This document shows, piece after piece, positions 245-48,566 of a stretch of DNA of 49,998 nucleotides. The notes below the pieces were generated by a model. The model saw nothing but the letters and a program-made list of their open reading frames with translations, did no database searches and was not told the origin of the DNA. The stretch's first letter is position 1, and each line of letters starts with the position of its first letter. The translations under genes and the position numbers were made by a program. The DNA is from a virus, in the IMG/VR virus record IMGVR_UViG_3300015360_001243, positions 1-49,998 of that record; one strand, given 5' to 3'.

Positions 245-1039
245 ATGCAAGCAACGACTGTCGCCGCCCAAGGTTCGGCTGAGACTGATTTCAATTTGGC
301 CGCTTTCTCCGCCTCTCTTTCTGCGGAAGGTAAGACTGCACCTGCTGCTAAGACAGCTCTTAAGAGGCAAGTTGATGAACTTACTTCTGCTATTGATGCT
401 ATGAGAAAAAATCTGAATCTTGAATTCGTCAAGCATTCTGTTCGTGCATCTTCTAATATCCAAGAAAATTGGGAGTATGTTAAGCAGGAAAGAAAATTTC
501 AAGGCTACATTGCTACCTACGGTTATTCTTTTCATATTGATGATCTAGAGAAGATTAGTCAGGTTTATGACGCTCTTACCTCTATTGAAGAGGCAACTAT
601 AGCTTCTCCGACCTTTGCATTGAAGAGTCGTGACCGAATCAACAAGAAGTCATTGAAGGATGCTTTTGCAAAAGTTTCTGAAAGATTTGAGACAGAATGT
701 AAAGTTCTTGGATTGAATCCATCTGATTTCGAAATTGCTAGCTGGGAAGCTTCTTATAGCGATTCTCAGCGAAGTGACCGAGTGGCGGCCCATACTGGTC
801 GTGTTGGAGCTGCTAGGGCCATGTCCGCCGCAGCAACCACCTACTCCGCCGATGTAGCGATTGAATCTGCTATGGGCGGTGGAGCACCACGCGGAAACGA
901 CGAACCACTTGAATTAGTGGTTGGTAAAGCCCGAGTTACCGTTAACCTAGAAGTAGGTTATGCGCGTAGAGTTTCTCAAACAATTAGAGCTAAAGTGGTG
1001 AAAGAATCACCATTATCTGAGGAGATGACACATGCCTGA
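245..1039 (+). CDS. hypothetical protein (264 aa)
   Basis: I do not recognise this protein. The first ~60 residues are Ala/Ser-rich and helical (two Lys/Ala-rich helices, residues 30-60). A charged helical middle follows (85-165), then a low-complexity Ala/Gly segment (185-220), then a beta-rich C-terminus. The gene overlaps the next by 8 nt (start codon at 1032), so the two are probably translationally coupled. An Ala-rich, linker-containing protein could be a structural or scaffold component, but nothing in the sequence proves that. Confidence 0.8.
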   Translation: MQATTVAAQGSAETDFNLAAFSASLSAEGKTAPAAKTALKRQVDELTSAIDAMRKNLNLEFVKHSVRASSNIQENWEYVKQERKFQGYIATYGYSFHIDDLEKISQVYDALTSIEEATIASPTFALKSRDRINKKSLKDAFAKVSERFETECKVLGLNPSDFEIASWEASYSDSQRSDRVAAHTGRVGAARAMSAAATTYSADVAIESAMGGGAPRGNDEPLELVVGKARVTVNLEVGYARRVSQTIRAKVVKESPLSEEMTHA

Positions 1040-1547
1040 TGATAAATTGTCTATTGCCCAAGCGCTTCGTAGAATCAAGAAGCTGAAGGGTTTGATTGCT
1101 GAGCACCAACAACGTGCTCAAGTGGGTGTCAGCTATGACGTCACTAAAATTCCAGCTTTCCGTTATAAGGATGCTGTTGAAGGAATGTTTTCTACTCAAG
1201 ATGAAGTAGTTGCATTAGAATCTCGCGTAGCTGTTGCTAATGCGAAAACAGTTGTCACCATTCCTGGGGGCGCTCAAGTTTCGATGGCATTAGCTATTCG
1301 CACTCTTCAAGAGTTGAAGGGCCGCATTGCTTTCCTAAAGGGATTGCATTTGCGTAGTGAGACCGTCAAAGAGCGTACCAATGATTGGGACGACACTGAG
1401 ATGAAGCATATTGCTCGTGTTACTGAGACGACTTTCGTTTCAGACTTGAGCGAGCAAGACCGTGACCAACAGGTCAAGGCATTGCAAAATCAATTTGAAG
1501 CATTGAACAATGCTGTTGAAGACACTAACCACTTAGTGGTTGTGTAA
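1032..1547 (+). CDS. hypothetical coiled-coil protein (171 aa), possibly DIP1984-like
   Basis: The protein is mostly helical. An N-terminal amphipathic helix (residues 5-30, SIAQALRRIKKLKGLI) and a central segment (residues 70-115) share the form 'AN..T......M.LA.AI..L..LKG.I..L..L'. That layout resembles DIP1984-family proteins as I remember them, but the match is tentative. The start codon lies inside the 3' end of the upstream gene. Immediately downstream are two structured RNAs, so this may be the last coding gene before an RNA-only stretch. Confidence 0.8.
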   Translation: MPDDKLSIAQALRRIKKLKGLIAEHQQRAQVGVSYDVTKIPAFRYKDAVEGMFSTQDEVVALESRVAVANAKTVVTIPGGAQVSMALAIRTLQELKGRIAFLKGLHLRSETVKERTNDWDDTEMKHIARVTETTFVSDLSEQDRDQQVKALQNQFEALNNAVEDTNHLVVV

Positions 1548-1570
1548 AAGTTTGCCCGTAAGGGCGCAAG

Positions 1571-1836
1571 GCTAGAGTACGAAACTAGCGTGAACAAGTT
1601 GGGATCCCCATTTCTCCACTGGGAATTATCTTCGGATAATTGTTAGAGAGCAAACCGGACATCCAATTAACAAGGATACAATCCGCTACTGATGCCGATA
1701 TCGCCCCAACGTTTTAAGTTGGTTAGCATTTAGAGTTTATAGCATCTTTAGCAGTCAGCCATTAGCCATAAGCTATTAAGGCTCAGCATGTAGCACTTGT
1801 CAAACCAGCTTTTAGCGGGACATTTTGTACTCTATT
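1571..1836 (+). ncRNA. structured non-coding RNA candidate upstream of RNase P RNA
   Basis: About 300 nt lie between the 171-aa gene and the RNase P RNA with no credible ORF. An 8-bp closing helix pairs 1573-1580 (TAGAGTAC) with 1827-1834 (GTACTCTA). Inside it are an AATTATC/GATAATT hairpin with a UUCG tetraloop, a CCAAC/GTTGG hairpin, and an AGCC...GGCT hairpin enclosing TTAGC/GCTA. A GCCC-GTAA-GGGC hairpin precedes the domain. UUCG and GNRA-type tetraloops are typical of stable RNAs. I could not match it to tmRNA, 6S or SRP RNA, because there is no T-loop and no CCA end. It could be co-transcribed with RNase P RNA as a leader. Confidence 0.5.
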
Positions 1837-1847
1837 AATTAGGATTT

Positions 1848-2334
1848 GGAAGGAGTCATCTAGGTAATCGCGATAGGAAACTATCGAGGAAAGTCGGAGC
1901 AGCGCACAACAACTCACTGGCTAACGGCCAGGCACCGTGAGGTGACGGAAAGTGCAACAGAGAATAGACCGCCATTAGAATTAAAGACCAGCGTGGTAAG
2001 GGGTAGGCCCATTTTGTCCCCCTGTCGGGTCTCGGGAAAAAACGCAAGTGATGTTAAAGGGTATAGGCATCCCGTTGTCACGAGTAGCTAAATGACCGAA
2101 TAGCAAGAGACTCAGTTCTAATGGTAAGGGTGAAACGGCGGTGTAAGAGACCACCACATTTATAGTGATATAGATGGTATGGCAAACCCTGAGTGCTGCA
2201 AGCTAAATAGTAAGCGTCTGAGCCTTGTTGGGGCGAGCTTACGGGTTAGCGCTAAAGCTGTTAGGTAACTATCAGCGTAGATTAATGATTGCCTGGAATT
2301 ATACACAGGACTCCGCTTATTGATGACTCCTTCC
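1848..2334 (+). ncRNA. rnpB: RNase P RNA (bacterial type A), phage-encoded
   Basis: This is the catalytic RNA of RNase P, which removes 5' leaders from pre-tRNAs. The ends form a perfect 13-bp P1 helix (1848-1860 with 2322-2334). P3 is CGATAG-GAAA-CTATCG (1871-1886). Conserved blocks occur in the right order: GAGGAAAGTC (1886-1895), AGTGCAACAGAGA (1951-1963), the GGTAAGGGTGAAA region (2123 on), GCAAGCTAAATAG (about 2196-2208) and AGATTAATGATT (2279-2290). ACTCCGCTTAT near 2310 provides the 3' strand of P4. The P11/P12 arm has a perfect 9-bp stem (1972-1980 with 2116-2124) enclosing ~135 nt, much larger than in E. coli. The usual L15 GGU that binds the tRNA CCA end is not obvious. No RnpA protein gene is seen, so the host protein is presumably used. 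Confidence 0.95.
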
Positions 2335-2352: not shown

Positions 2353-2580
2353 ATGGATATTAAACTAGAACATATTATTGGTTGCATTATATCTACTTCT
2401 ATTGAGGCGGCTAAAACTGCTAATTCAATAGATGCACAAGATAATGGAATTAAATCGTTAGCTAATTGCTTGCGACATTCTGATTTATATTCTTCTGATT
2501 CTTTGGAAGAAAGATTAAAAGTAGCAGATTATTTAGATAGGCTTTGCGTCAAAAATGAAAATAGATCTAATTTATCCTAA
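2353..2580 (+). CDS. hypothetical protein (75 aa)
   Basis: I do not recognise this small, acidic, probably helical protein. An upstream in-frame ATG at 2320 lies within the P1 helix of the RNase P RNA, so I place the start at 2353, preceded by a GAGGA ribosome-binding sequence. Its 3' end overlaps the start of the RNA ligase gene by 26 nt, which suggests translational coupling. Confidence 0.65.
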   Translation: MDIKLEHIIGCIISTSIEAAKTANSIDAQDNGIKSLANCLRHSDLYSSDSLEERLKVADYLDRLCVKNENRSNLS

Positions 2581-3181
2581 AATTCCTGAGAACTCCAATA
2601 AGTTCTTGACCAAATGTCACGCTTTTGAAAAGTTAGATGGCACTAACATGCATTGGGTTTGGGCCCTGAATGAAGGTTGGCATCTCTTCGGAACACGCAG
2701 AACGCAGTTCGCTCTGACCAAAGAGGGCATTGATGATTTCACTAAGACCCATCCCGAGTTAGCTAACGCACCTCAGATTTTCAATGATAAGTTTCGTGAT
2801 AAGTTCACGACTATGCTTGCTAGAACTAAAACCTGGTGCCTCCAGAAATGGACTGTGTTCACCGAATTCCATGGCCCCAATTCATTTGCAGGGGGTCATG
2901 ACATGCAAGATGCTCGGATTAATGCTCAAACCTTAACCATCATTGACATCATGATTAATGATGAAATGATTACTCCACAACAACTAGTTCAAGATTTTAG
3001 TGATTTCAACATTGCTAAACTTGTCTACACTGGTAAGTACAGCGGACAGTTCGCTGAAGACGTTAGGAACGGCAAGTATGGCGTTAATGAGGGCGTTGTG
3101 GTCAAGGGAGTAGTTGATGCTCAAGTTTTTATGACCAAGGTTAAAACCAAAGACTATTTAAAACGTTTAGAGAAAAGATGA
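2555..3181 (+). CDS. ATP-dependent RNA ligase (T4 Rnl2-like nucleotidyltransferase), copy 1
   Basis: This is a covalent nucleotidyltransferase that would seal RNA nicks, for example in cleaved tRNAs. Visible motifs are motif I FEKLDGTN (Lys ~26 is the adenylated residue), a following FGTR, motif III FTEFHGPNSFAG, motif IV EGVVVKG and motif V MTKVKTKDYL. At 208 aa it is a catalytic core only, with no obvious accessory domain. It overlaps both neighbours: it starts inside the 75-aa gene and ends with ATGA shared with the cupin gene. A diverged paralog lies at 28838-29458. Proximity to the RNase P RNA and tRNA clusters supports a tRNA-repair role, which is inference. Confidence 0.88.
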   Translation: MKIDLIYPKIPENSNKFLTKCHAFEKLDGTNMHWVWALNEGWHLFGTRRTQFALTKEGIDDFTKTHPELANAPQIFNDKFRDKFTTMLARTKTWCLQKWTVFTEFHGPNSFAGGHDMQDARINAQTLTIIDIMINDEMITPQQLVQDFSDFNIAKLVYTGKYSGQFAEDVRNGKYGVNEGVVVKGVVDAQVFMTKVKTKDYLKRLEKR

Positions 3182-6773: not shown

Positions 6774-6849
6774 GTCGCGGTACCCAAATGGTTAAGGGGC
6801 CTGTCTGCAAAACAGGTATTCGTGAGTTCGAACCTCACCTGCGACTCCA
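6774..6849 (+). tRNA. tRNA-Cys (GCA)
   Basis: A cloverleaf with acceptor GTCGCGG/CTGCGAC, anticodon loop CTGCAAA (anticodon GCA), a T-arm with TTCGAAC and an encoded CCA. Confidence 0.95.
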
Positions 6850-6861
6850 GAGATTCATTAA

Positions 6862-6953
6862 GGAGATTTGCGTGAGTCTGGCTGAAACGGCTACCCTGGA
6901 AAGGTAGTGGCCCTGTAAAGGGTCCGAGGGTTCGAATCCCTCAGTCTCCTCCA
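6862..6953 (+). tRNA. tRNA-Ser (GGA)
   Basis: Acceptor GGAGATT/AGTCTCC, anticodon stem CTACC/GGTAG with anticodon GGA, a long variable arm and an encoded CCA. It reads UCC and UCU. Confidence 0.95.
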
Positions 6954-6975
6954 TAAGTAAGATGAAGTATATTAA

Positions 6976-7065
6976 GGAAGTGTGCTAGAGTGGTTTATTA
7001 GACTAGTCTTGAAAACTAGAGGGGATGAAAGTCCTCCGTGAGTTCGAATCTCACCACTTCCTCCA
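6976..7065 (+). tRNA. tRNA-Ser (UGA)
   Basis: Acceptor GGAAGTG/CACTTCC, anticodon stem CTAGT/ACTAG with anticodon TGA, a long variable arm and an encoded CCA. It should read UCA and probably other UCN codons. Confidence 0.95.
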
Positions 7066-7084
7066 GAATAAGAAAGACCTATTC

Positions 7085-8008
7085 ATGATTAAAATTGCAA
7101 CGTTAGTTGGTTGTGCTATTGGAGATGCCCTTGGTAATCCCTTCGAAATGAAGCTTGCCAACTACGAACCACTAGAGAAGTGGGGCGGTAACTTCATTGA
7201 AGGCGGAACCTTCTGGTGGGGCCAGCCCGGTCAGTATACCGATGATACTCTCATGAGTATTGCATTAGGTTCTAGTCTAGTTGAGTTTCAAGGTTTCAAT
7301 CCCGAAGATGTTGGCCAGAAGTATTTAGCCTGGATGGAATCAGGTAATACTCGTGGTATTGGCGGGACAACCGCCAAAGCCCTGACTAGGTTGAAGCTTG
7401 GGGCTACTGTCTTTGAAAGTGGCGTCACACTCAATCCAGATGGCACAGCCTGTGGTGGTAACGGTACCGCCATGAGAGCCTCTCCTATTGGCCTAGTCTA
7501 TCGTCATGATCTACCTAAGCTAATGGAAGTAGCTATTCATGATGCAGTCATCACTCACAAGTCTCTTGAGCCCAAGGTTGGGTCAGTGGCTGTGGCTTTG
7601 GGTACTGCACTTTTAGCCGAGAGATTTGCAGGTCCTAAGGACCTTCTAACTGAAGTAAGTTTTGTATTATCTGATTCTTTGGTAAAAGATAAGATACTTC
7701 AAGCAGCTTTTTTCATTGAACAGGAAACCGATCCTATGGAGGCTTTAGCTCAGATTGGGACTGCTGGTTATGTTCCAGAGACTGTGGGAGCTGCCTTCTA
7801 CTGTCTGGGTGCCACACAATCGTTCCAGGACGCCGTTATCATGGCGGTCAAGGGCGGTGGAGACACTGACACTACAGCGGCGATTGTAGGGGCAATGGCG
7901 GGCACTTGGTACGGTTTAGAGGGCATTCCTCAAGAGTACAAAGATGAAGTTGAGAACTTCCAATTACTTCAAGATTTGACTGACGAACTTATCAATATCG
8001 AGTTATAA
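7085..8008 (+). CDS. ADP-ribosylglycohydrolase (ARH/DraG family), copy 1
   Basis: This enzyme would remove ADP-ribose from proteins or nucleic acids, or hydrolyse ADP-ribosyl compounds. Family motifs are present: IGDALGNPFE near the N-terminus, GQYTDDTLMSIALG (metal-binding Thr-Asp-Asp), GNGTAMRASPIG, and near the C-terminus KGGGDTDTTAAIVGAMAG, which supplies further metal ligands. All key Asp/Thr positions are intact. An in-frame ATG at 7025 falls inside the preceding tRNA-Ser, so I start at 7085 (307 aa). It sits between two tRNA blocks. A paralog is at 40307-41224. The likely context is reversal of ADP-ribosylation or NAD metabolism. Confidence 0.92.
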   Translation: MIKIATLVGCAIGDALGNPFEMKLANYEPLEKWGGNFIEGGTFWWGQPGQYTDDTLMSIALGSSLVEFQGFNPEDVGQKYLAWMESGNTRGIGGTTAKALTRLKLGATVFESGVTLNPDGTACGGNGTAMRASPIGLVYRHDLPKLMEVAIHDAVITHKSLEPKVGSVAVALGTALLAERFAGPKDLLTEVSFVLSDSLVKDKILQAAFFIEQETDPMEALAQIGTAGYVPETVGAAFYCLGATQSFQDAVIMAVKGGGDTDTTAAIVGAMAGTWYGLEGIPQEYKDEVENFQLLQDLTDELINIEL

Positions 8009-8020
8009 GAGATACGTTAC

Positions 8021-8112
8021 GGAGAATTGGCAGAGTGGCCGATCGCGTCTGTTTGCTAAACAGAAGGGGGTGTTAAAGCCTCCCACAGGTTCGAATCCTG
8101 TATTCTCCGCCA
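8021..8112 (+). tRNA. tRNA-Ser (GCU)
   Basis: Acceptor GGAGAAT/ATTCTCC, anticodon stem TCTGT/ACAGA with loop TTGCTAA, a long variable arm and an encoded CCA. It reads AGC and AGU. Confidence 0.95.
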
Positions 8113-8116
8113 TCAT

Positions 8117-8201
8117 GGATGATAAACCAGTTTGGAACTGGCACTGTTTCGAAAACAGATGGACCCCTTGGGTTGGAGTTCGATTCTTCTATTTTCCGCC
8201 A
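8117..8201 (+). tRNA. degenerate tRNA-Ser-like (CGA)
   Basis: The D-arm is CCAG/CTGG, the anticodon loop TTCGAAA gives CGA, and the variable arm is ACCC-CTT-GGGT; an encoded CCA is present. The acceptor stem GGATGAT/ATTTTCC has a T-T mismatch and a wobble, the anticodon stem has an A-A mismatch and the T-stem is imperfect. It is either a decaying gene or a marginal tRNA for UCG. Confidence 0.65.
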
Positions 8202-8281
8202 TATGAAAGATAAAGGCGCTACGATTGCATTCATTATTGTTGCTGTAGGTCTTATTACTCTTTTAGAAGTATATTGTAAAT

Positions 8282-8352
8282 AGGCTTGAGCACAGGGTGC
8301 AATGCGGTCTCCAAAGCCGTAGAAGAGGGTTCGATTCCTTCCAGGCCTGCCA
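8282..8352 (+). tRNA. tRNA-Trp (CCA)
   Basis: Acceptor AGGCTTG/CAGGCCT, anticodon stem GCGGT/GCCGT with loop CTCCAAA (anticodon CCA), T-loop TTCGATT and an encoded CCA. The D-arm is short. Confidence 0.85.
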
Positions 8353-12018: not shown

Positions 12019-13017
12019 ATGAGCAGCTTTGATCCGTATAAGACCCTTGAAATCTCGAATAGAGCAAGCTCAACTGTCATCAAGGCGGCATATCACGCCC
12101 TCATAAAACAATTTCATCCTGATTACTCTGGACATGATAAAAGGGCTAAAGAACTGAATGCTGCTTATGAAATTCTTTCTGATTCAGACAAAAAGAAGAA
12201 ACACGATAAGCTGGCCAAAGACCAGAAGGGCACCATTATTGGTAGCTACCGAGTCCTTGAATCAATCGCTGAGGGTGGCTTCGGCTCTACTTACAAAGGA
12301 GAGCATATCCTTACCAAGGATCCTGTCTGCATTAAGCACTGCTCCATGGTATCCCCTGCCCATGATGCAATTCTCATCCAAGAGATGAAGTCTATCTGGG
12401 ATTTGCGCCACTACGCCATGCCCGTCATGCGTGACCTTCAAAGACTAGAAGATGGTAGCCTTGCTCTCATCATGTCTTACATACCTGGTTTCACTCTGGA
12501 ACAGATTGTTGAGAAGGCCGGAAAGATTGAACCAGAGACTACCGCTTGGATTACTGAGCGTATTCTTAATGCTCTACTTTATCTTCATCACCATGGAGTT
12601 ATTCATGGCGACATCAAGCCACAGAACATTATTATTCAACCTAAGACTCACTCGGTAGTTTTAGTTGATTTCGGTTTGGCAATGGTTAGACCGGGAAGTT
12701 CGGATAAGTCGATTGGTTATACACCAGTCTTTGCTTCTCCTGAACAGATTGATGGTAAAGCTTTGCTCCCAGCTTCCGACTATTACAGTCTTGGAATGCT
12801 GATGGTCTATGCTTTGAATGGTGGTAAGAGAATGGAAAAGAAGGAAGTTCCTTCTTCGGTTCCCGATCCAATGGCCAATTTCATTGGGAGCTTGGTCAAG
12901 AAAGATGTTCTTTCAAGACCACAAGACAATCTGTTTGAACAGTTTGTCAAGGTACGTCAGGACTCATTTGGACGTACTCGATCCGGAATGAAAGACATTC
13001 CAGGGTTCAACAGTTAA
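12019..13017 (+). CDS. J-domain / serine-threonine protein kinase fusion
   Basis: A 332-aa protein with two domains. Residues 1-65 form a DnaJ J-domain: YKTLEI, a helix ending FHPDYSG with the essential HPD, then AAYEILSDSDKKKKHD. Residues ~75-300 form a Hanks-type kinase: glycine loop IAEGGFGSTYKG, ATP-binding Lys in VCIKHC, catalytic loop HGVIHGDIKPQNIII (HGD in place of HRD), DFG in LVDFGLAM, and an APE-like SPEQ. All catalytic residues are present, so it is probably active. The J-domain would recruit DnaK, so the kinase may act on chaperone clients or on DnaK itself. It heads a cluster with vWA, pyruvate-kinase-like and ATP-grasp genes. Confidence 0.92.
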   Translation: MSSFDPYKTLEISNRASSTVIKAAYHALIKQFHPDYSGHDKRAKELNAAYEILSDSDKKKKHDKLAKDQKGTIIGSYRVLESIAEGGFGSTYKGEHILTKDPVCIKHCSMVSPAHDAILIQEMKSIWDLRHYAMPVMRDLQRLEDGSLALIMSYIPGFTLEQIVEKAGKIEPETTAWITERILNALLYLHHHGVIHGDIKPQNIIIQPKTHSVVLVDFGLAMVRPGSSDKSIGYTPVFASPEQIDGKALLPASDYYSLGMLMVYALNGGKRMEKKEVPSSVPDPMANFIGSLVKKDVLSRPQDNLFEQFVKVRQDSFGRTRSGMKDIPGFNS

Positions 13018-17197: not shown

Positions 17198-17273
17198 TCG
17201 TGGTATAGCGTATTGGATGTGCGCCCGTCTCATAAGCGGGACAGAGTGGGTTCGATTCCCACTACCACGACCA
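17198..17273 (+). tRNA. tRNA-Met/Ile (CAU)
   Basis: Acceptor TCGTGGT/ACCACGA, anticodon stem CCCGT/GCGGG with loop CTCATAA (CAT), and an encoded CCA. The T1-A72 pair and the lack of three G-C pairs in the initiator orientation argue against an initiator. It could be elongator Met or a lysidine-modified Ile tRNA. Confidence 0.9.
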
Positions 17274-17276
17274 TTT

Positions 17277-17351
17277 GGCCGATTAACTCAGCGGTAGAGT
17301 ATTGCCTTTACAAGGCGAGAGTCGGGGGTTCGAATCCCTCATCGGCTACCA
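17277..17351 (+). tRNA. tRNA-Val (UAC), copy 1
   Basis: Acceptor GGCCGAT/ATCGGCT with a G-T first pair, anticodon stem TTGCC/GGCGA with loop TTTACAA, and an encoded CCA. Confidence 0.92.
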
Positions 17352-17358
17352 GTTTCAT

Positions 17359-17433
17359 GGGAGATTAGCTCAATGGTAGAGCATCGGTTTTACACTCCGA
17401 AGACTTAGGGTTCGATCCCCTTATCTCCTACCA
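17359..17433 (+). tRNA. tRNA-Val (UAC), copy 2
   Basis: Acceptor GGGAGAT/ATCTCCT, anticodon loop TTTACAC, encoded CCA. The inner pair of the anticodon stem is a T-T mismatch. Confidence 0.88.
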
Positions 17434-17441
17434 AATACCAT

Positions 17442-17515
17442 GGGCGGTTAACTCAATGGCAGAGTGCTAGTATGACTTGCTAGCTACAGGGGTTCGATTC
17501 CCCTACCGCCTACCA
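17442..17515 (+). tRNA. tRNA-Val (GAC)
   Basis: Acceptor GGGCGGT/ACCGCCT, anticodon stem CTAGT/GCTAG with loop ATGACTT (GAC), and an encoded CCA. Its last base is the first base of the next ORF's ATG. Confidence 0.9.
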
Positions 17516-22985: not shown

Positions 22986-23059
22986 GCGGGGTTGGCATAT
23001 TGGCTGTGTCCTAGCCTTCCAAGCTAGTCAAAGGAGTTCGATTCTCCTACTCCGCTCCA
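22986..23059 (+). tRNA. tRNA-Gly (UCC)
   Basis: Acceptor GCGGGGT/ACTCCGC, anticodon stem CTAGC/GCTAG with loop CTTCCAA, and an encoded CCA. Confidence 0.93.
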
Positions 23060-23087
23060 GGTAAGATGATAATTGAAGTAAGTGTAA

Positions 23088-23162
<75 letters not shown>

Positions 23163-23168
23163 AGACGA

Positions 23169-23242
23169 ATGCCGATGTGGATTACATGGTAAACAATCAG
23201 GCCGCAATCCTGATCTAGCTGGTTCAATTCCAGCTCGGAAAC
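23169..23242 (+). tRNA. degenerate tRNA-like remnant (GCA)
   Basis: A clear anticodon arm TCAGG/CCTGA with loop CCGCAAT (no U33) and a strong T-arm GCTGG-TTCAATT-CCAGC. The acceptor stem pairs at only 5 of 7 positions, no normal D-arm forms and there is no CCA. It is a decayed or non-canonical tRNA. Confidence 0.5.
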
Positions 23243-23291
23243 TCGCAAGAGGATCTTAAATAAAAATCTCATCATTTTAGTCGTCTATTAA

Positions 23292-23365
23292 GCGGTTGTA
23301 ATTCAATGGTAGAACTTGTGGTTGCCATCCACAGAACATCGGTTCGATTCCGATTAACCGCTCCA
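23292..23365 (+). tRNA. tRNA-Gly (GCC), copy 2
   Basis: Acceptor GCGGTTG/TAACCGC, anticodon stem TGTGG/CCACA with loop TTGCCAT, and an encoded CCA. Confidence 0.92.
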
Positions 23366-25304: not shown

Positions 25305-25378
25305 TGGAGAATCGTCTAACGGCAGGACAAGCGACTCTGACTCGCTTTATCTAGGTTCGAATCCTTGTTCTCCAGCCA
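25305..25378 (+). tRNA. tRNA-Gln (CUG)
   Basis: Acceptor TGGAGAA/TTCTCCA, anticodon stem AGCGA/TCGCT with loop CTCTGAC (CTG), and an encoded CCA. Confidence 0.93.
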
Positions 25379-25384
25379 CAAACT

Positions 25385-25458
25385 TCTGGAATCGTCTAAT
25401 GGTAGGACGGGGGACTCCGACTCCCCAAATATTGGTTCGAGCCCAATTTCCAGAACCA
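25385..25458 (+). tRNA. tRNA-Arg (CCG), Gln-like body
   Basis: Acceptor TCTGGAA/TTCCAGA, anticodon stem GGGGA/TCCCC with loop CTCCGAC (CCG), and an encoded CCA. The D-arm and the anticodon-loop flanks are nearly the same as in the neighbouring tRNA-Gln, suggesting a duplication with a changed anticodon. Confidence 0.85.
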
Positions 25459-34815: not shown

Positions 34816-35814
34816 ATGAAGTCATTTGAATATTGCGTTTGCATTGGTCGTTTCCAGCCGTTTCATCATGCTCATCATGAGCTGATTAAAGAGGCCCTTA
34901 GTCACGCCGAAACTGTTTTGGTTGTCATTGGTAGTGCCCAGAGAGCACCCAATATTCTCAACCCCTTTACCGCTGAGCAGCGAGAAGCTATGATCTTGAG
35001 CGCTCTCTCCGATGATGAGAAGACGCACATCAAGTTCCTTCATGTTCGCGACTACTACTACACCAACAACCGTTGGTTGACCGAAGTTCAACAGCTTGTT
35101 TATGATGCTACAGATGGCATTGATGATAACAAGATTTGTGATATCGGAGAGTATAGCTGGTTCCCTCAGTGGAAATTCTTCAAGATGCGTAATCTTGATC
35201 GTATGCCACATGCAACCATTGTTCGTGGACTGTACTTTACCCATGACAATGCTTACAAGAGTCATGTGAGTCCTGGTGTTGTCGACTACCTTGAGAGCTT
35301 CAAGCAGACCCAGTTTTTCAAGAATTTGAAGGAAGAGTACGATTATGTTCGTAACTACCGAGCTTCTTGGGATGGCGCTCCCTTTCCTCCAACTTTTGTT
35401 ACTGTTGACTGCGTAGTTATCAAGAGTGGTCACGTCTTGGCAGTTCGCCGTAAAGGAAGTCCTGGCCGAGGATTGATTGCTCTTCCGGGCGGTTTTCTCA
35501 ACCAAAAGGAAACCATCTTGGATGGTGCTCTTCGAGAACTAAAGGAAGAGACTGGTATCAAGGTTTCCAAAGAAGAATTGGAAAAGGCAGTTACCGAAAC
35601 CAAAGTCTTCGATTATCCTGAGCGTTCTATTCGTGGACGTACCATTACTCATGCTTTCTTGATTGACCTTGGAGATGGCCAGCTTCCTCCAGTCAAGGGT
35701 TCGGATGATGCGGATAAGGCTTGGTGGATGTCACTGAGCGACTTTGCTACGAGAGAGCCTGAGTTCTTTGAAGATCACTTCTACATCATCTCTCACTTTA
35801 TCAATAAGTTCTAA
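34816..35814 (+). CDS. nadM: bifunctional NMN adenylyltransferase / Nudix hydrolase
   Basis: Residues 1-170 are an NMN adenylyltransferase, which makes NAD+ from NMN and ATP. It has GRFQPFHHAH (the HxGH-like nucleotidyltransferase site), a conserved FPQW, and ATIVRGLYF in place of the usual ISATxIR loop. Residues ~195-330 are a Nudix hydrolase with LPGGFLNQKETILDGALRELKEETGI, matching GX5EX7REUXEEXGU. The Nudix domain could cleave ADP-ribose to recycle ribose-5-phosphate. The leader ends GAGAGTGTAATTATGAA, almost the same as the leader of the next gene, so the two are probably co-regulated. Confidence 0.93.
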   Translation: MKSFEYCVCIGRFQPFHHAHHELIKEALSHAETVLVVIGSAQRAPNILNPFTAEQREAMILSALSDDEKTHIKFLHVRDYYYTNNRWLTEVQQLVYDATDGIDDNKICDIGEYSWFPQWKFFKMRNLDRMPHATIVRGLYFTHDNAYKSHVSPGVVDYLESFKQTQFFKNLKEEYDYVRNYRASWDGAPFPPTFVTVDCVVIKSGHVLAVRRKGSPGRGLIALPGGFLNQKETILDGALRELKEETGIKVSKEELEKAVTETKVFDYPERSIRGRTITHAFLIDLGDGQLPPVKGSDDADKAWWMSLSDFATREPEFFEDHFYIISHFINKF

Positions 35815-35817
35815 ATA

Positions 35818-35836
35818 CTATTCTCAGAGAGAGAAT
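35818..35836 (+). promoter_or_regulatory. leader hairpin before Nampt
   Basis: A perfect TATTCTC/GAGAATA stem with loop AGAGA, 25 nt before the ATG. It could act as an mRNA stability or processing element between the two NAD genes. Confidence 0.4.
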
Positions 35837-35861
35837 ACATACACATACAGAGAGTATAATT

Positions 35862-37271
35862 ATGAAAACGAATAGATTAAGTTACTTGTTTGACGCCGAC
35901 AGCTATAAGGTTTCCCATTACTTGCAGTATCCTCCGGGAACTACAAGCATGTTCTCGTACATTGAGAGCCGAGGTGGTGAATACAATGAGACCGTCTTCT
36001 TTGGGCTACAGTATTATCTTAAGGAGTATCTTACTCACCGCGTGACAGTGGAAGAGGTTGAGAAAGCCAAGGAGTTTTATGCGGTTCATGGAGAGCCTTT
36101 TAACTACGAAGGCTGGCTGTACATTGCTAAAGACCTTAAAGGTAAGCTGCCGGTTCGTATCCGAGCCGTGCCTGAAGGCAGCGTGGTCTCTACTCATAAC
36201 ATTCTCGTCAGTATTGAATCGACTGATCCTAAAGTCTTTTGGATTGTGTCCTGGATTGAAACTATGCTACTTAGGGTCTGGTATCCTATCACAGTAGCTA
36301 CCAGGAGCCGCTACATCAGACAAATCATTCTAGAAGCCCTGGAAACCTCGGCGGATGATCCTCAAGGTGAAATCGCATTCAAGCTGCATGACTTTGGTAG
36401 CCGTGGCGTTAGTAGCCAAGAATCTGCCATGATTGGTGGTGCATCTCACCTTGTCAATTTCATGGGCAGTGATACTGTTGCAGGTGTCCTGATGGCTAAT
36501 GAAGTTTACAACACGCCGATGGCAGGGTTCAGTATCCCTGCGGCCGAGCACAGCTCCATTACCTCTTGGGGTAAAGAGAATGAAGTTGATGCTTATCGTA
36601 ATATGCTCAAGCAGTTTGCTAAGCCCGGCGCCTTGGTGGCCTGCGTGTCTGACTCCTATGATCTTTGGAATGCATGTACTCACCTTTGGGGAGAGGTACT
36701 TCGTCAGGAAGTCATCGACTCTGGTGCAGTTGTCATCATCCGTCCTGACTCTGGGCATCCTCCGGCTGTTGTTCGTAAGTGTGCTCATCTTCTTGCTGAG
36801 AAGTTTGGTTACACCCTTAATAGCAAGGGCTACAAGGTTCTCAACAATGTCCGCATTATTCAGGGTGACGGCATCAATGAACACTCTATCCGAGCTATCT
36901 TGAATGACTTGCTGGATGCAGGATTCAGCGCAACCAACATTGCATTCGGAATGGGCGGAGCTTTGCTTCAGATGCTTAACCGTGATACGCAGAAGTTTGC
37001 CATGAAATGTAGCCATATTTTCATTGGAGATAAGTCGGTGGATGTCTTCAAGAATCCTGTGACTGACCCTGGCAAAATGAGCAAGCCGGGCCGATTGGAC
37101 CTAGCTTTTGTGGATTCTGGTCCTAATATTGGAGAATACGAGACGGTCCCTTTGTTCGATGATGAAATTGCTCACAAGCGTAGCGTAATGCATACTGTCT
37201 ACGAAAATGGCGAAATCATTAACGAAACGACCTTTGAAGAAGTTCGTGCTCGTGCTAAAGCTGCCAAGTGA
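35862..37271 (+). CDS. nadV: nicotinamide phosphoribosyltransferase (Nampt)
   Basis: This enzyme converts nicotinamide and PRPP to NMN. The 469-aa length matches the family. The N-terminus has LFDADSYKVSHYLQYPPGT. HDFGSRGVSSQESAMIGGASHLVNFMGSDT is the conserved central block, AEHSSITSWG carries the phosphorylated His, and IRPDSGHP provides the ribose-phosphate-binding Asp. Together with NMNAT immediately upstream it forms a two-step nicotinamide-to-NAD+ salvage pathway. Such a pair was recently described as a phage route that restores NAD+ after host NAD-depleting defence. Confidence 0.95.
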   Translation: MKTNRLSYLFDADSYKVSHYLQYPPGTTSMFSYIESRGGEYNETVFFGLQYYLKEYLTHRVTVEEVEKAKEFYAVHGEPFNYEGWLYIAKDLKGKLPVRIRAVPEGSVVSTHNILVSIESTDPKVFWIVSWIETMLLRVWYPITVATRSRYIRQIILEALETSADDPQGEIAFKLHDFGSRGVSSQESAMIGGASHLVNFMGSDTVAGVLMANEVYNTPMAGFSIPAAEHSSITSWGKENEVDAYRNMLKQFAKPGALVACVSDSYDLWNACTHLWGEVLRQEVIDSGAVVIIRPDSGHPPAVVRKCAHLLAEKFGYTLNSKGYKVLNNVRIIQGDGINEHSIRAILNDLLDAGFSATNIAFGMGGALLQMLNRDTQKFAMKCSHIFIGDKSVDVFKNPVTDPGKMSKPGRLDLAFVDSGPNIGEYETVPLFDDEIAHKRSVMHTVYENGEIINETTFEEVRARAKAAK

Positions 37272-39684: not shown

Positions 39685-40314
39685 ATGATTAAAGGAACCA
39701 GACTTCTCATTGGTGATGAAGCCAATTTATATTTTGATATTTGCCAAGATCTTAGATTTAAGCTAAGAGAGCTAGATTTTCAAGAAGTATATTTGCCTTC
39801 TATGTGGGATCAGCAAACCTTTATTGATAAGGCTGGCCCCGAAATCATCAATCAAATGTATACTTTTAAAGACAAAGGAGATAGAGATATCTGTCTTATT
39901 CCAGAGTGTACGGCCCTCATCCAGAAAATGTGGAATGAAGAATGGGTTAATCGAATTAAACAACCTTTGAAAATTTTTTACATTCAAAGGTGCTATCGTT
40001 ATGAAAGCCCGCAAGCCGGGAGGTATAGAGAGTTCACTCAAGCTGGCATAGAAATTCTTGGAAATAAAGCTTCCAAGGAAGAGGCTGTATCTTCTTTGAA
40101 AGAATGTCTAGACATATTTAACATTGACTATTCTTTTTCTGATACGGTTAAACGTGGCCTATCTTATTATGTAGAAGATGGATTTGAAGCTGAAGTTTCT
40201 TATTTGGGTGCGCAAAAACAAGTAGCTGGTGGTGGCCGATATAAAGAAGGCATTGGCTGGGCTATTGGTGTAGACAGATTAATGTTGGCATTGCAAAGGA
40301 AAAATAATGAGTAA
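39685..40314 (+). CDS. mini histidyl-tRNA synthetase-like catalytic domain
   Basis: A 209-aa class II synthetase core. GTRLLIGDEANLYFDICQDL matches the HisRS N-terminus (RGTRDLLP), MYTFKDKGDR matches MYTFEDRGGR, and motif 2 is FYIQRCYRYESPQAGRYREFTQAGIEI. The histidine-specific RGLDYYT appears as KRGLSYYV, keeping the Arg but with Ser for Asp. AGGGRYKEGIGWAIGVDRLMLAL covers motif 3. The ~100-aa insertion domain and the anticodon-binding domain of normal HisRS (~420 aa) are missing. I start at the second ATG, which has better ribosome-binding-site spacing. It overlaps the next gene by 8 nt. Confidence 0.85.
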   Translation: MIKGTRLLIGDEANLYFDICQDLRFKLRELDFQEVYLPSMWDQQTFIDKAGPEIINQMYTFKDKGDRDICLIPECTALIQKMWNEEWVNRIKQPLKIFYIQRCYRYESPQAGRYREFTQAGIEILGNKASKEEAVSSLKECLDIFNIDYSFSDTVKRGLSYYVEDGFEAEVSYLGAQKQVAGGGRYKEGIGWAIGVDRLMLALQRKNNE

Positions 40315-41224
40315 TGTATTACTTGGTACAGCAGTTGCGGATGCCCTCGGCGTTCCTTTTGAGAAGAAGCTTGTCAATTTTGAAGGACTTGTTGAGTGGG
40401 ATGGTAAAACCTATCTCGGTAGCGAACATCATAAGCTAAAGCCAGGACAATACTCGGATGATACTCAGATGAGTCTCATGGTTGCTGAATCTTTGATTAA
40501 GAACCAAGGATTCAATCCAGATGACTTGGCCGCTCAGTATATGGACTGGCTAGTTTCAGGGCGCGCTAGAGGTTATGGCAAGACTACTTTGATGGCTGTT
40601 CAGAATCTTCAGGCCGGAAAACACTGGAGTGAATCAGGTATCGCTGGTTCAATGGGAAATGGAACTGCCATGAGGGCAGCGCCATTTGGCGTCTATTTCC
40701 GTAATGACCTCTATTCTTTGGTCAATATTTGTAAGATTGACAGCGCAATCACCCATGCCTCCGAAGATGCCGAAGCGGGGTCAATTGCTATTGCTTTGGC
40801 CGCAGCTTATGCTGTCAATGATGAAACGGATGGTCTGCTAGAGAAGATCTGGAAGGCATTGCCTGATTGTAAAGTCAGAAGCACTATCTATAGTTTGGAC
40901 TCTCTTATCTCTTCCGAGCATATTACACCGCAGCAAGCGTTGCGAGTACTGGGAACCAAGGCGGACGTCCGTGAGACGGTCCCAGCGGCCCTGTACTGCT
41001 TCTTGAAGTTTGATAATTACCATGAGGCTATCGTGGCAGCAATCAAAGCTGGAGGCGATACAGACACCACAGCGGCCATCGTGGGTGCCCTATTTGGAGC
41101 TAAGGATGGTATGAAGGCCATTGACTCAGAGATTGCTCATGGTGTTGAAGATTATGATAAGTTGATTGAGCTAGACAGCCAACTTTACAATCGCTCTAGT
41201 ACTTCATTTTTCCCGAGGAGTTAG
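40307..41224 (+). CDS. ADP-ribosylglycohydrolase (ARH/DraG family), copy 2
   Basis: A 305-aa paralog of the protein at 7085, with the same motif series: AVADALGVPFE, GQYSDDTQMSLMVAE (Ser replaces Thr before DD), GNGTAMRAAPFG and KAGGDTDTTAAIVGALFG. All metal ligands appear retained. It starts within the HisRS-like gene's last codons, so the two are co-translated. Tight pairing of a HisRS-like core with an ADP-ribosyl hydrolase is unusual and may indicate a tRNA or RNA ADP-ribosylation link. Confidence 0.9.
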   Translation: MSNVLLGTAVADALGVPFEKKLVNFEGLVEWDGKTYLGSEHHKLKPGQYSDDTQMSLMVAESLIKNQGFNPDDLAAQYMDWLVSGRARGYGKTTLMAVQNLQAGKHWSESGIAGSMGNGTAMRAAPFGVYFRNDLYSLVNICKIDSAITHASEDAEAGSIAIALAAAYAVNDETDGLLEKIWKALPDCKVRSTIYSLDSLISSEHITPQQALRVLGTKADVRETVPAALYCFLKFDNYHEAIVAAIKAGGDTDTTAAIVGALFGAKDGMKAIDSEIAHGVEDYDKLIELDSQLYNRSSTSFFPRS

Positions 41225-46144: not shown

Positions 46145-46647
46145 ATATCTTTGCAGTTGATGAAAGCCCTAAAGAAGCGGCATATGCACTTTGCGATAAG
46201 CATGTAATTAAGATGATTCTGGAAAGTACTCAAATGCTTTCCACCGTCGCTCAGCTTCGTGGGTTTGCCGGCCCTTATAAGCCTACCCACGCGAAACATC
46301 CATGTACGCAATGGGTGGCTAGTCATCCAGCTAATTGGGCATGGTTAGTTCGACATGCGACTTTTATGGCTTACGAGTATAGTGACAGATATGGCAAGCG
46401 CCATAAATGTCATGATTTGATTGATGAGTTGGATTCTCGCTCATCCATTATTTGGGCCAACACGCAGTTTGAGGATCATTCAGATTACTATGCTGAACAC
46501 ACTCCTTTTGAGCAGTGTATGCCCGATCAATATAAGCGAGAAGATGCCATCGAGGCGTATCGTGCTTATTACATCGGCGAGAAAGCCAGATTCGCTACCT
46601 GGAAAATGAACAAACCTTCTTGGTTTCCGGAGATTCAACATGTCTAA
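46141..46647 (+). CDS. conserved phage-type hypothetical protein (168 aa)
   Basis: The sequence MNIFAVDESPKEAAYALCDKHVIKMILESTQML, followed by THAKHPCTQWVASHPANWAWLVRHA, looks like a family I have seen in phages but cannot name with certainty. It is rich in conserved His, Trp and Cys. Some relatives are loosely annotated as DNA repair proteins; I see no DenV-type catalytic sequence, so I give no function. The next gene's start overlaps by 8 nt. Confidence 0.7.
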   Translation: MNIFAVDESPKEAAYALCDKHVIKMILESTQMLSTVAQLRGFAGPYKPTHAKHPCTQWVASHPANWAWLVRHATFMAYEYSDRYGKRHKCHDLIDELDSRSSIIWANTQFEDHSDYYAEHTPFEQCMPDQYKREDAIEAYRAYYIGEKARFATWKMNKPSWFPEIQHV

Positions 46648-47509
46648 CGATTCACTTGGCGATAGAATGAAGTCCTACGAGGACTGTTACCGTACTCAAC
46701 TACCAATCCGCATGCCACTCATTCTACGAATTGACGGCAAGGCTTTCCACACTTATACTAAGGGCTGCAAGCGGCCCTGGGACTCCAACCTTGTGGAATG
46801 TATGAATTTGACTGCCATTGAATTGTGTAAACGAGTTCAGGGTTGCCAGGTTGCTTACGTTCAATCTGATGAGATTTCTTTGCTGATAACTAACTACGAA
46901 GATATCGATACTCAGTCTTGGTTCGATAATAACCTACAAAAGATGGTTAGTATTTCTGCGGCTCTTGCGAGCGTAACTTTCACAATGAACTCTCACCTTA
47001 TTTGGGTGCCTGAGAAGATTGATCCAAGTTGCGATCCTATGAGTGAATCTGATTTCAACAAGCCGGCCTATTTCGATAGTCGCGCTTTTGTCATGCCCAA
47101 GGAAGATGTCAACAACTACTTCCTATGGCGTCAGCAGGACGCAACCCGAAACTCAGTTCAAATGCTAGCTCGTAGCCTGTATTCTCACAAGGAGCTTGAG
47201 GGTAAGAACAACTCTGCACTCCAGGATATGTGCTGGTCTAAAGGCCAAAATTGGAATGATGTACCGACCTCTCAAAAGAGAGGTCGTTGTATCGTTAAAG
47301 TCAGCTCTGTCAAGGAAGGAAAGAACCCTAAAACGGGTGAAGTCTTCTCCGCAGAACGCTCTGATTGGGTTGTAGATAACGATATCCCCGTATTTTCTCA
47401 GGATAGAAACTATATTGAGAAATTCGTTTATCCTCTTAGAGAGGAAGTCGGTATTAAACCCGGCGAACTAGTTGGGATGTCAACGTTAGGACCGATTTAT
47501 GGAAAGTAA
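46640..47509 (+). CDS. thg1: tRNA-His guanylyltransferase family protein (Thg1-like)
   Basis: Thg1-type enzymes add nucleotides in the 3'-to-5' direction, normally G-1 on tRNA-His; Thg1-like proteins can repair truncated tRNA 5' ends. The catalytic LRIDGKAFHTYTKG carries the first metal-binding Asp, and VAYVQSDEISLLI supplies the second (SDE). FNKPAYFDSRAF and WRQQDATRNSVQMLAR are conserved blocks. At 289 aa it is full length. It sits between the 168-aa gene and PheRS. No tRNA-His gene is in this window, so tRNA 5'-end repair is at least as likely as G-1 addition. Confidence 0.93.
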   Translation: MSNDSLGDRMKSYEDCYRTQLPIRMPLILRIDGKAFHTYTKGCKRPWDSNLVECMNLTAIELCKRVQGCQVAYVQSDEISLLITNYEDIDTQSWFDNNLQKMVSISAALASVTFTMNSHLIWVPEKIDPSCDPMSESDFNKPAYFDSRAFVMPKEDVNNYFLWRQQDATRNSVQMLARSLYSHKELEGKNNSALQDMCWSKGQNWNDVPTSQKRGRCIVKVSSVKEGKNPKTGEVFSAERSDWVVDNDIPVFSQDRNYIEKFVYPLREEVGIKPGELVGMSTLGPIYGK

Positions 47510-48566
47510 TATTCCGCCCAGCATTACTAGTAAGATGGGGGAAACTCTCTACAAAACTGTAGGGCATCCTATTTGCACCGTCAAAGATATGGTTTTCGAG
47601 TATTTCGACGATCTTGCTAGGATTGAAATTGATAATCCATTAGTTCCTGTTGAATACAACTTCGACAGATTGCGCGTGCCCCAGAATCATCCTTCTAGAG
47701 CCCGTAGTGATACGTTCTACGAGAATGAGAATACGGTACTTCGTACCCATATGACCTGTTATCTATACCCGATGGGGAAATCAGAGACAGGTCACAGCCA
47801 ACTCAAGTACATTACATGCGGTGATGTGTATCGAAAAGATGCTATTGATGCTACACACTATCCTGTATTCCATCAAATTGATGCTTTCTGCATCGTACCA
47901 GATGGCGTAGATGTTAAACAAGATCTGCGCAATAGGCTATCAGGGCTTGTTACTCATCTATTCGGGCCAGATGCCAAGCATCAATTCTTAGAAGACTCAG
48001 AACATGAGGACGTTTACTTCCCTTTCACCGTGGATTCTCTTGAAGTGAATGTAGAATTCAAGGTTGAGGGGGTCGTTAAGCATCTTGAAATCCTGGGTGC
48101 AGGTACCGTTCACCCAGATATCATGAAGGATTTGGGTTTAGAGAATCATCAAGCTTGGGCTTTCGGCCTAGGTATTGAGCGTTTAGCTATGGTTATGTAC
48201 GATATTCCAGACATTCGTTTGTTCTGGAGTCGTGATTCTAGATTTCTTGACCAGTTCACGGCCGGGAAAGTCACTAAATTTAAACCATACTCTAAATATG
48301 AGTCTTGTTACAAAGATGTTTCGTTCTATAGTAGTCCTGAATTCAATTATAATGACCTTTGTACTATTGCTAGAGATGAAGATAAGGGCAATATTATTGA
48401 GTCAATTGTTCTACGTGACGAGTTTCATCATAAAGGACGGCTTTCTCATTGCTATAGAATGAACTATCGCTCTATGGAAGCTACTCTTAAAAATTCTGAA
48501 GTGGATAAAGTTCAAAAAGCTATTCGTAAAAGAATGGTTGATGAACTTAAAGTGGAGATTAGGTAA
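47499..48566 (+). CDS. pheS: single-chain phenylalanyl-tRNA synthetase (mitochondrial-type)
   Basis: A 355-aa class II synthetase. Residues ~20-250 form the PheS catalytic core: GHPICTVKDMVFEYFDDL, FDRLRVPQNHPSRARSDTFY (motif 1/2 area), GDVYRKDAIDATHYPVFHQIDAF, LGAGTVHPDIM and FGLGIERLAMVMYDIPDIR (motif 3). Residues ~265-355 form a ferredoxin-like anticodon-binding domain: FKPYSKYESCYKDVSF, then FHHKGRLSHCYRMNYRSMEATL. This domain is normally on bacterial PheT, whereas fusion to PheS is the layout of mitochondrial PheRS. No pheT is visible. It overlaps Thg1 by 11 nt. Confidence 0.93.
   Translation: MESNIPPSITSKMGETLYKTVGHPICTVKDMVFEYFDDLARIEIDNPLVPVEYNFDRLRVPQNHPSRARSDTFYENENTVLRTHMTCYLYPMGKSETGHSQLKYITCGDVYRKDAIDATHYPVFHQIDAFCIVPDGVDVKQDLRNRLSGLVTHLFGPDAKHQFLEDSEHEDVYFPFTVDSLEVNVEFKVEGVVKHLEILGAGTVHPDIMKDLGLENHQAWAFGLGIERLAMVMYDIPDIRLFWSRDSRFLDQFTAGKVTKFKPYSKYESCYKDVSFYSSPEFNYNDLCTIARDEDKGNIIESIVLRDEFHHKGRLSHCYRMNYRSMEATLKNSEVDKVQKAIRKRMVDELKVEIR

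Follow-up and report, generated by a model that had tools for sequence, protein, structure and literature searches.

A complete type A RNase P RNA gene in a jumbo-phage lineage

The window analyzed here is a stretch of 49,998 nucleotides from a virus—positions 1 to 49,998 of the 153,198-base IMG/VR record IMGVR_UViG_3300015360_001243, hereafter contig G000—and the element under study is a gene for the RNA of ribonuclease P (RNase P). This RNA is an ancient ribozyme that processes transfer RNAs and occurs in nearly all cells. As judged from its sequence, positions 1848–2334 on the plus strand are a complete bacterial type A RNase P RNA, composed of the following parts, including the conserved regions (CR) I to V.

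1848–2334, plus strand: the whole rnpB-like ribozyme gene (487 nt), a bacterial type A RNase P RNA
1848–1860, plus strand: 5′ strand of helix P1, perfect over 13 bp with 2322–2334
1871–1886, plus strand: P3 hairpin with a GAAA tetraloop (6 bp, 1871–1876/1881–1886; loop 1877–1880)
1886–1899, plus strand: CR-I and the 5′ strand of P4, in which U1894 is the universally bulged U
1952–1973, plus strand: CR-II/III (GUGCAACAGAGAAUAGACCGCC), all nucleotides the same as in bacteria
1974–2122, plus strand: enlarged P12 arm, 149 nt
2123–2155, plus strand: CR-IV (GGUAAGGGUGAAA...GUAAGAG...CACC), from the cmscan alignment and bacterial comparison
2202–2250, plus strand: P15/P16/P17 stack of type A RNAs
2244–2246, plus strand: L15 GGU
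2305–2319, plus strand: CR-V and the 3′ strand of P4 (ACAGGACUCCGCUUA), from the cmscan alignment and pairing count
2322–2334, plus strand: 3′ strand of helix P1, read from the sequence

How closely does this RNA match its cellular counterparts? When all of Rfam was searched with cmscan, RF00010 matched 1852–2334 on the plus strand with 262.5 bits (gathering score 100; E = 1.5e-84), in an untruncated alignment spanning the full model (1–367). A record-wide search of the 153,198 bases of G000 returned this gene as the single RF00010 match. The first-pass annotation, made from the letters alone, had called the locus a complete phage-encoded type A RNase P RNA and had named an Rfam covariance-model search as the check; the score, far over the gathering score and across the whole model, bears this out. 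Its account of the architecture also holds, since P1 is a perfect 13-bp helix, P3 has a 6-bp stem with a GAAA loop, and CR-I to CR-V are all present in the order of type A RNAs. Ninety-three of the 98 model pairs are standard in the window (a count over the secondary structure that excludes the P6 pseudoknot), and the predicted fold of the whole RNA has a z-score of −3.55 relative to dinucleotide shuffles.

The conserved positions indicate that the catalytic core of the phage RNA is intact. Mismatches at the universal P4 nucleotides had been singled out beforehand as the mark of a false assignment; instead, all eight pairs of this long-range helix are standard and U1894 is bulged. Once the phage RNA is aligned to 70 bacterial RNase P RNAs, 100 columns reach a conservation of 97% or more in the bacterial set, and the window departs from six of them (1896, 2142, 2150, 2178, 2211, and 2212). 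All six departures are compensated helix changes, as the positions stay paired: 1896–2314 is G–C, 2142–2150 U–A, 2156–2178 A–U, 2211–2241 U–A, and 2212–2240 A–U. None of the near-invariant unpaired nucleotides is changed relative to the 70 bacterial RNAs. The GGU of L15 is the pairing site for the 3′ RCCA of tRNA. The first-pass annotation had not found it obvious, but it is present at 2244–2246, within a CGGGUU that cmscan aligned to the consensus CGGGU, and an altered specificity through loss of this motif is thereby ruled out.

The enlargement of the P12 arm was correctly noticed at first sight, and the arm measures 149 nt (1974–2122). It is common to the window and phage contig G029 with approximately 80% identity, a value equal to that of the core. 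In G033, a close relative, the enlarged arm is lacking and P12 is minimal. The P12 arms of the sampled bacterial RNAs range from 7 to 154 nt, so a length of 149 nt is not unprecedented; with the L15 GGU in place as well, the changed substrate preference that had been proposed is unsupported. The fold energy of the insert alone is unremarkable (z about −1). Three candidate origins of the insert were rejected. It has no Rfam match beyond weak sub-threshold chance matches, no copy as a repeat was found elsewhere in the phage, and a duplication of the J11/12–J12/11 element (AGACC..TGGTAAGGG in both) scores no better than 329 of 1000 shuffles.

We identify the 153-kb IMG/VR contig as a fragment of a jumbo phage, because it carries phage genes and its DNA polymerase is 74–77% identical over the full length to those of contigs of 267–481 kb. 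These relatives are G020, G005, G047, G035, and G007 (268, 481, 447, 267, and 359 kb, respectively), and each of them has an RF00010 match. The genes of the contig encode an rIIA-like protein, a DnaE-type DNA polymerase, a UvsX-like recombinase, SbcC/SbcD-like nucleases, an NAD-dependent DNA ligase, and a T4 Rnl1-type ligase. In G047 (280034–283555), the polymerase gene (74% identical) contains one in-frame TAA, which may reflect recoding, an intein or intron remnant, or a sequencing error. The RNase P RNA gene is flanked by two protein genes.

1032–1547, plus strand: upstream gene with a weak phage tail-fibre-family match, from a profile match and synteny
2555–3181, plus strand: RNA ligase-like protein, the downstream neighbour (phrog_548, E = 3.4e-7; tblastn synteny)

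The upstream gene is syntenic in G046, G029, G033, G020, and G012, and according to tblastn, the ligase gene lies downstream of the RNase P RNA in at least seven phages (G017, G046, G033, G005, G007, G020, and G012). The ligase product reaches 24.5 bits with the Pfam RNA_ligase profile, under the cut-off of 27. The gene order also bears on whether the end of the contig is chimeric through misassembly or contaminated with bacterial DNA, as the RNase P RNA gene lies just 1.8 kb from the left end and deposited “phage” records can be contaminated. The same order recurs internally in G029, G033, G046, and G012 and the neighbours are phage-family genes, so that synteny contradicts this explanation and leaves it with next to no probability.

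To survey viral records, we ran two degenerate motif scans of IMG/VR, which returned 39 and 51 contigs. The RF00010 cut-off was passed by 37 of the 39 contigs in the first scan and by 31 of the 32 new contigs in the second. Approximately 25 large phage contigs (46–481 kb) with RNase P RNA are among the results; many of the small contigs look like host flanks of prophages, and those with an enterobacterial-type RNA (approximately 334 bits) were left uncounted. In a maximum-likelihood tree (338 aligned positions), the RNA of the window falls in a phage-only clade of 19 RNAs with an ultrafast bootstrap of 100. The phage RNAs of G031, of G016 with G068, of G036, and of G070/G048/G040 lie outside this clade, although the tree is built on one short RNA and its deep placements are weak. 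Their scattered placement suggests several acquisitions. Among deposited phages, blastn of the window found none with an RNase P RNA, a method that is insensitive for this RNA. The blastn matches of other phage RNAs—a Salmonella whole-genome shotgun record, an Acinetobacter prophage contig with host coaD, and unannotated fecal fragments—included no clear isolate. A similarity in Microcystis phage MaAM05 (L266, MW495066.1, 115320–115473) lies beside fabI, engB, mtgA, and glyS and is probably bacterial contamination.

We tested the structure of the window for covariation over 18 RNAs of the phage clade, with 500 shuffles. In these RNAs, 89.3% of the cells are paired, as compared to 31–43% when the partner strand is slid. 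Both sides change at 72 of the 106 pairs; the double-changed cells number 378, against a shuffled mean of 125, and the covariation score is 0.543, against 0.206. None of the 500 shuffles attained any of these observed values. Kinship inflates such covariation counts, but the slid controls retain the kinship and yet collapse. P4 is 99.3% paired across the 18 phages, with both-side changes at four of its eight pairs, and helices 14–16 (the P15/P16/P17 stack) are paired at 100, 97, and 77%. This shows that the RNase P RNA has long been evolving in phages, with selection maintaining the ribozyme structure. The same covariation test contradicts the idea that the RNA is a functionless passenger in decay or an rnpB gene lately acquired from a host: the clade of the window is deep and phage-only, it contains dozens of compensatory changes, and the core nucleotides are all kept. 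Decay does occur in such elements, as in one divergent group within tRNA arrays (G071, G066, and G064), the 5′ half of the RNase P-like RNA is damaged; for the window, we regard this origin as very improbable. An RNase P-like RNA of approximately 110 bits in L260, L261, and L262 (about 1501–1882, minus strand) lies in a tRNA array, has lost CR-I through damage to its 5′ half, overlaps a tRNA-Pro gene, and is probably a decaying copy.

What would the substrates be? ARAGORN detected 15 tRNAs in the window and about 32 in G000, and the contig also has a transfer-messenger RNA (tmRNA), in agreement with the initial impression of a phage-like genome rich in tRNAs. The CCA end is encoded in 29 of the approximately 32 tRNA genes of G000. 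The tRNA-related features of the window are as follows.

6774–8352, plus strand: tRNA genes Cys, Ser, Ser, Ser, Trp; candidate substrates, CCA encoded
17199–17515, plus strand: tandem tRNA genes Met, Val, Val, Val; spacers of 3–8 nt, CCA encoded
22986–23365, plus strand: tRNA genes Gly, Gly, Cys-like, Gly
25305–25458, plus strand: tRNA genes Gln, Arg
46640–47509, plus strand: Thg1-like tRNA-His guanylyltransferase, a tRNA 5′-end enzyme (PF04446, 101 bits)

The tmRNA (G000 99179–99530; L090:10179–10530) scores 123.6 bits, with the tag ANDNAFAPLALAA and an encoded CCA, and of the 25 phage records that carry an RNase P RNA, 15 have a full-length tmRNA over the cut-off. In 12 contigs (G031, G036, G038, G016, G039, G021, G028, G048, G068, G040, G059, and G070), the RNase P gene has a same-strand tRNA gene 0–12 nt away, and in G038 and G048, tRNAs abut it on both sides. 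A tRNA with a CUA anticodon at L090:15550–15624, which ARAGORN called Pyl, is possibly an amber suppressor and has no encoded CCA. Adjoining the Thg1 gene, window positions 47499–48566 encode a phenylalanyl-tRNA synthetase (PheRS)-like protein that joins tRNA-synt_2d and FDX-ACB in a single chain, the arrangement of mitochondrial-type PheRS. A Thg1-based search for relatives found none.

A search for the protein subunit RnpA (PF00825) in G000 and 27 further viral records, nine of them above 250 kb, gave no match; in a control, the same search detected PF00825 in 10 of 14 reference genomes. Therefore, the phage is not fully independent of its host, unless the RNA acts alone or with an unrecognised protein. 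Such a host-independent RNase P would fit the absence of RnpA from all 28 records, the established activity of type A RNAs without protein at high salt, and the mostly unknown functions of the phage proteins near the gene. The salt required for protein-free activity is unphysiological, though, and RnpA is so interchangeable among bacteria that the host protein is the simplest partner; we consider the host-independent enzyme unlikely. The missing RnpA gene would also suit a decoy or takeover RNA, which titrates host RnpA or alters the specificity of host RNase P while phage tRNA maturation is incidental, and phages often inactivate host functions. For this purpose, the RnpA-binding part would suffice, yet the S-domain, L15, and the catalytic P4 helix are kept and covary, and the placement in tRNA arrays points to tRNA processing. 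A decoy role thus appears more improbable still.

We favor, with a probability of approximately 0.78, a functional, vertically inherited jumbo-phage type A RNase P RNA that most likely combines with host RnpA into a hybrid enzyme for maturing the tRNAs and tmRNA of the phage. The activity of the RNA and the reason for its carriage are what we infer here. According to established RNase P biochemistry, the transcript would fold after infection and then bind host RnpA. The hybrid holoenzyme would cut the 5′ leaders off the phage tRNA precursors and the phage tmRNA precursor, with the L15 GGU clamping the encoded CCA of the phage tRNAs. In the phages with tRNA arrays, cutting the 5′ leader of the directly downstream tRNA would also release the 3′ end of the ribozyme. 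The phage would probably gain the capacity to process its dozens of tRNAs at times when the rnpB RNA of the host runs short or has ceased to be made. Why the gene is carried is the least certain step of this explanation: the degradation of host rnpB cannot simply be assumed, as the E. coli RNase P RNA is relatively stable during T4 infection (PMC9697503), and extra capacity and independence once host transcription stops are equally plausible. The first-pass suggestion that the phage could mature its own tRNAs gains from the CCA-encoding tandem tRNAs, the L15 GGU, the covariation among phages, and the tRNA-array placement; the host RNase P shut-off or degradation that it supposed is conjectural.

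Several observations weigh against the favored explanation. The window's own subclade has no tRNAs adjoining the RNase P gene, and no promoter or terminator consensus was found when looked for near it. The absence of RnpA could reflect fragmentary records, though nine of the searched contigs exceed 250 kb. Moreover, the bacterial RNAs used for comparison were chosen through one exact 22-nt motif and do not sample bacteria at random.

Just upstream of the RNase P RNA lies a second element.

1573–1834, plus strand: conserved structured RNA, closing helix 1573–1584/1823–1834

This RNA (conserved region 1550–1836, plus strand) is found in five related phages, with counterparts at L034:2762–3063, L030:1494–1795, L257:1190–1491, and L013:6708–7069. 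Its closing helix covaries, and 16 of the 53 predicted pairs of the RNA show a compensatory change. It contains short AGC-rich repeats, and no Rfam family matched positions 1573–1834. On a broader reading, to which we give an even chance, the jumbo-phage lineage has long had its own RNase P ribozyme, which runs tRNA and tmRNA production in trans with or without host RnpA; some relatives would self-excise it from a tRNA–RNase P–tRNA polycistron, and the upstream structured RNA may be a partner or precursor.

Other genes of the phage fall into further groups. RNA-repair genes encode an RlaP-type nucleotidyltransferase and two RNA ligases (L089:7382–8494, L089:18513–19775, and window 2555–3181). 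An ADP-ribose/NAD system comprises a PARP with WGR and PARP regulatory domains (L088:4277–5767), two ADP-ribosylglycohydrolases (window 7025–8008 and 40307–41224), and a NAMPT and NadM/Nudix pair (window 34816–37271). In addition, a protein kinase domain is fused to a DnaJ domain at window 12019–13017.

The phage RNA shares the fold, the conserved regions, the bulged U of P4, and the L15 GGU with the bacterial type A RNA (RF00010; E. coli M1 RNA, rnpB). In contrast to bacterial rnpB, the phage gene comes without rnpA, belongs to its own clade, and neighbours tRNA genes or an RNA ligase gene; what is new relative to the known type A RNAs is this phage-borne, RnpA-less setting. Phage T4 also has its tRNA precursors cleaved by RNase P, but T4 uses the host RNase P RNA, whereas the phage of the window brings its own RNA. 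The theta ribozymes located next to phage tRNAs (PMC10879173) are likewise phage-encoded ribozymes linked to tRNA processing; they are self-cleaving, hepatitis delta virus-like RNAs that act in cis and are proposed for the 3′ trailer, while RNase P is a trans-acting enzyme for the 5′ leader. The megaphages of about 0.5 Mb (PMC8172020; huge phages, PMC7162821) are similarly rich in tRNAs and encode a tmRNA; a scan of megaphages with Rfam picked up tRNAs and one tmRNA and no RNase P RNA (PMC8172020). The jumbo-phage RNA-repair and tRNA-provisioning systems (PMC7824862) share tRNAs, RNA ligases, and RNA repair with our phage; ribonuclease P is unmentioned in that survey of 224 jumbo phages and in a 2026 review. 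In the open literature, to which our search extended, we came across no account of an RNase P RNA encoded by a phage or any other virus.

That a phage clade keeps an RNase P RNA without the protein subunit shows that a step central to tRNA biogenesis can be phage-owned. The finding suggests that these related viruses bring part of their own tRNA-processing machinery and are not wholly reliant on the host, and the arrays with tRNAs directly next to the RNase P RNA suggest that the ribozyme is involved in its own maturation. Natural hybrid RNase P enzymes thereby become available for study, and two questions become testable: why phages carry many tRNAs, and whether host RNase P is limiting during infection.
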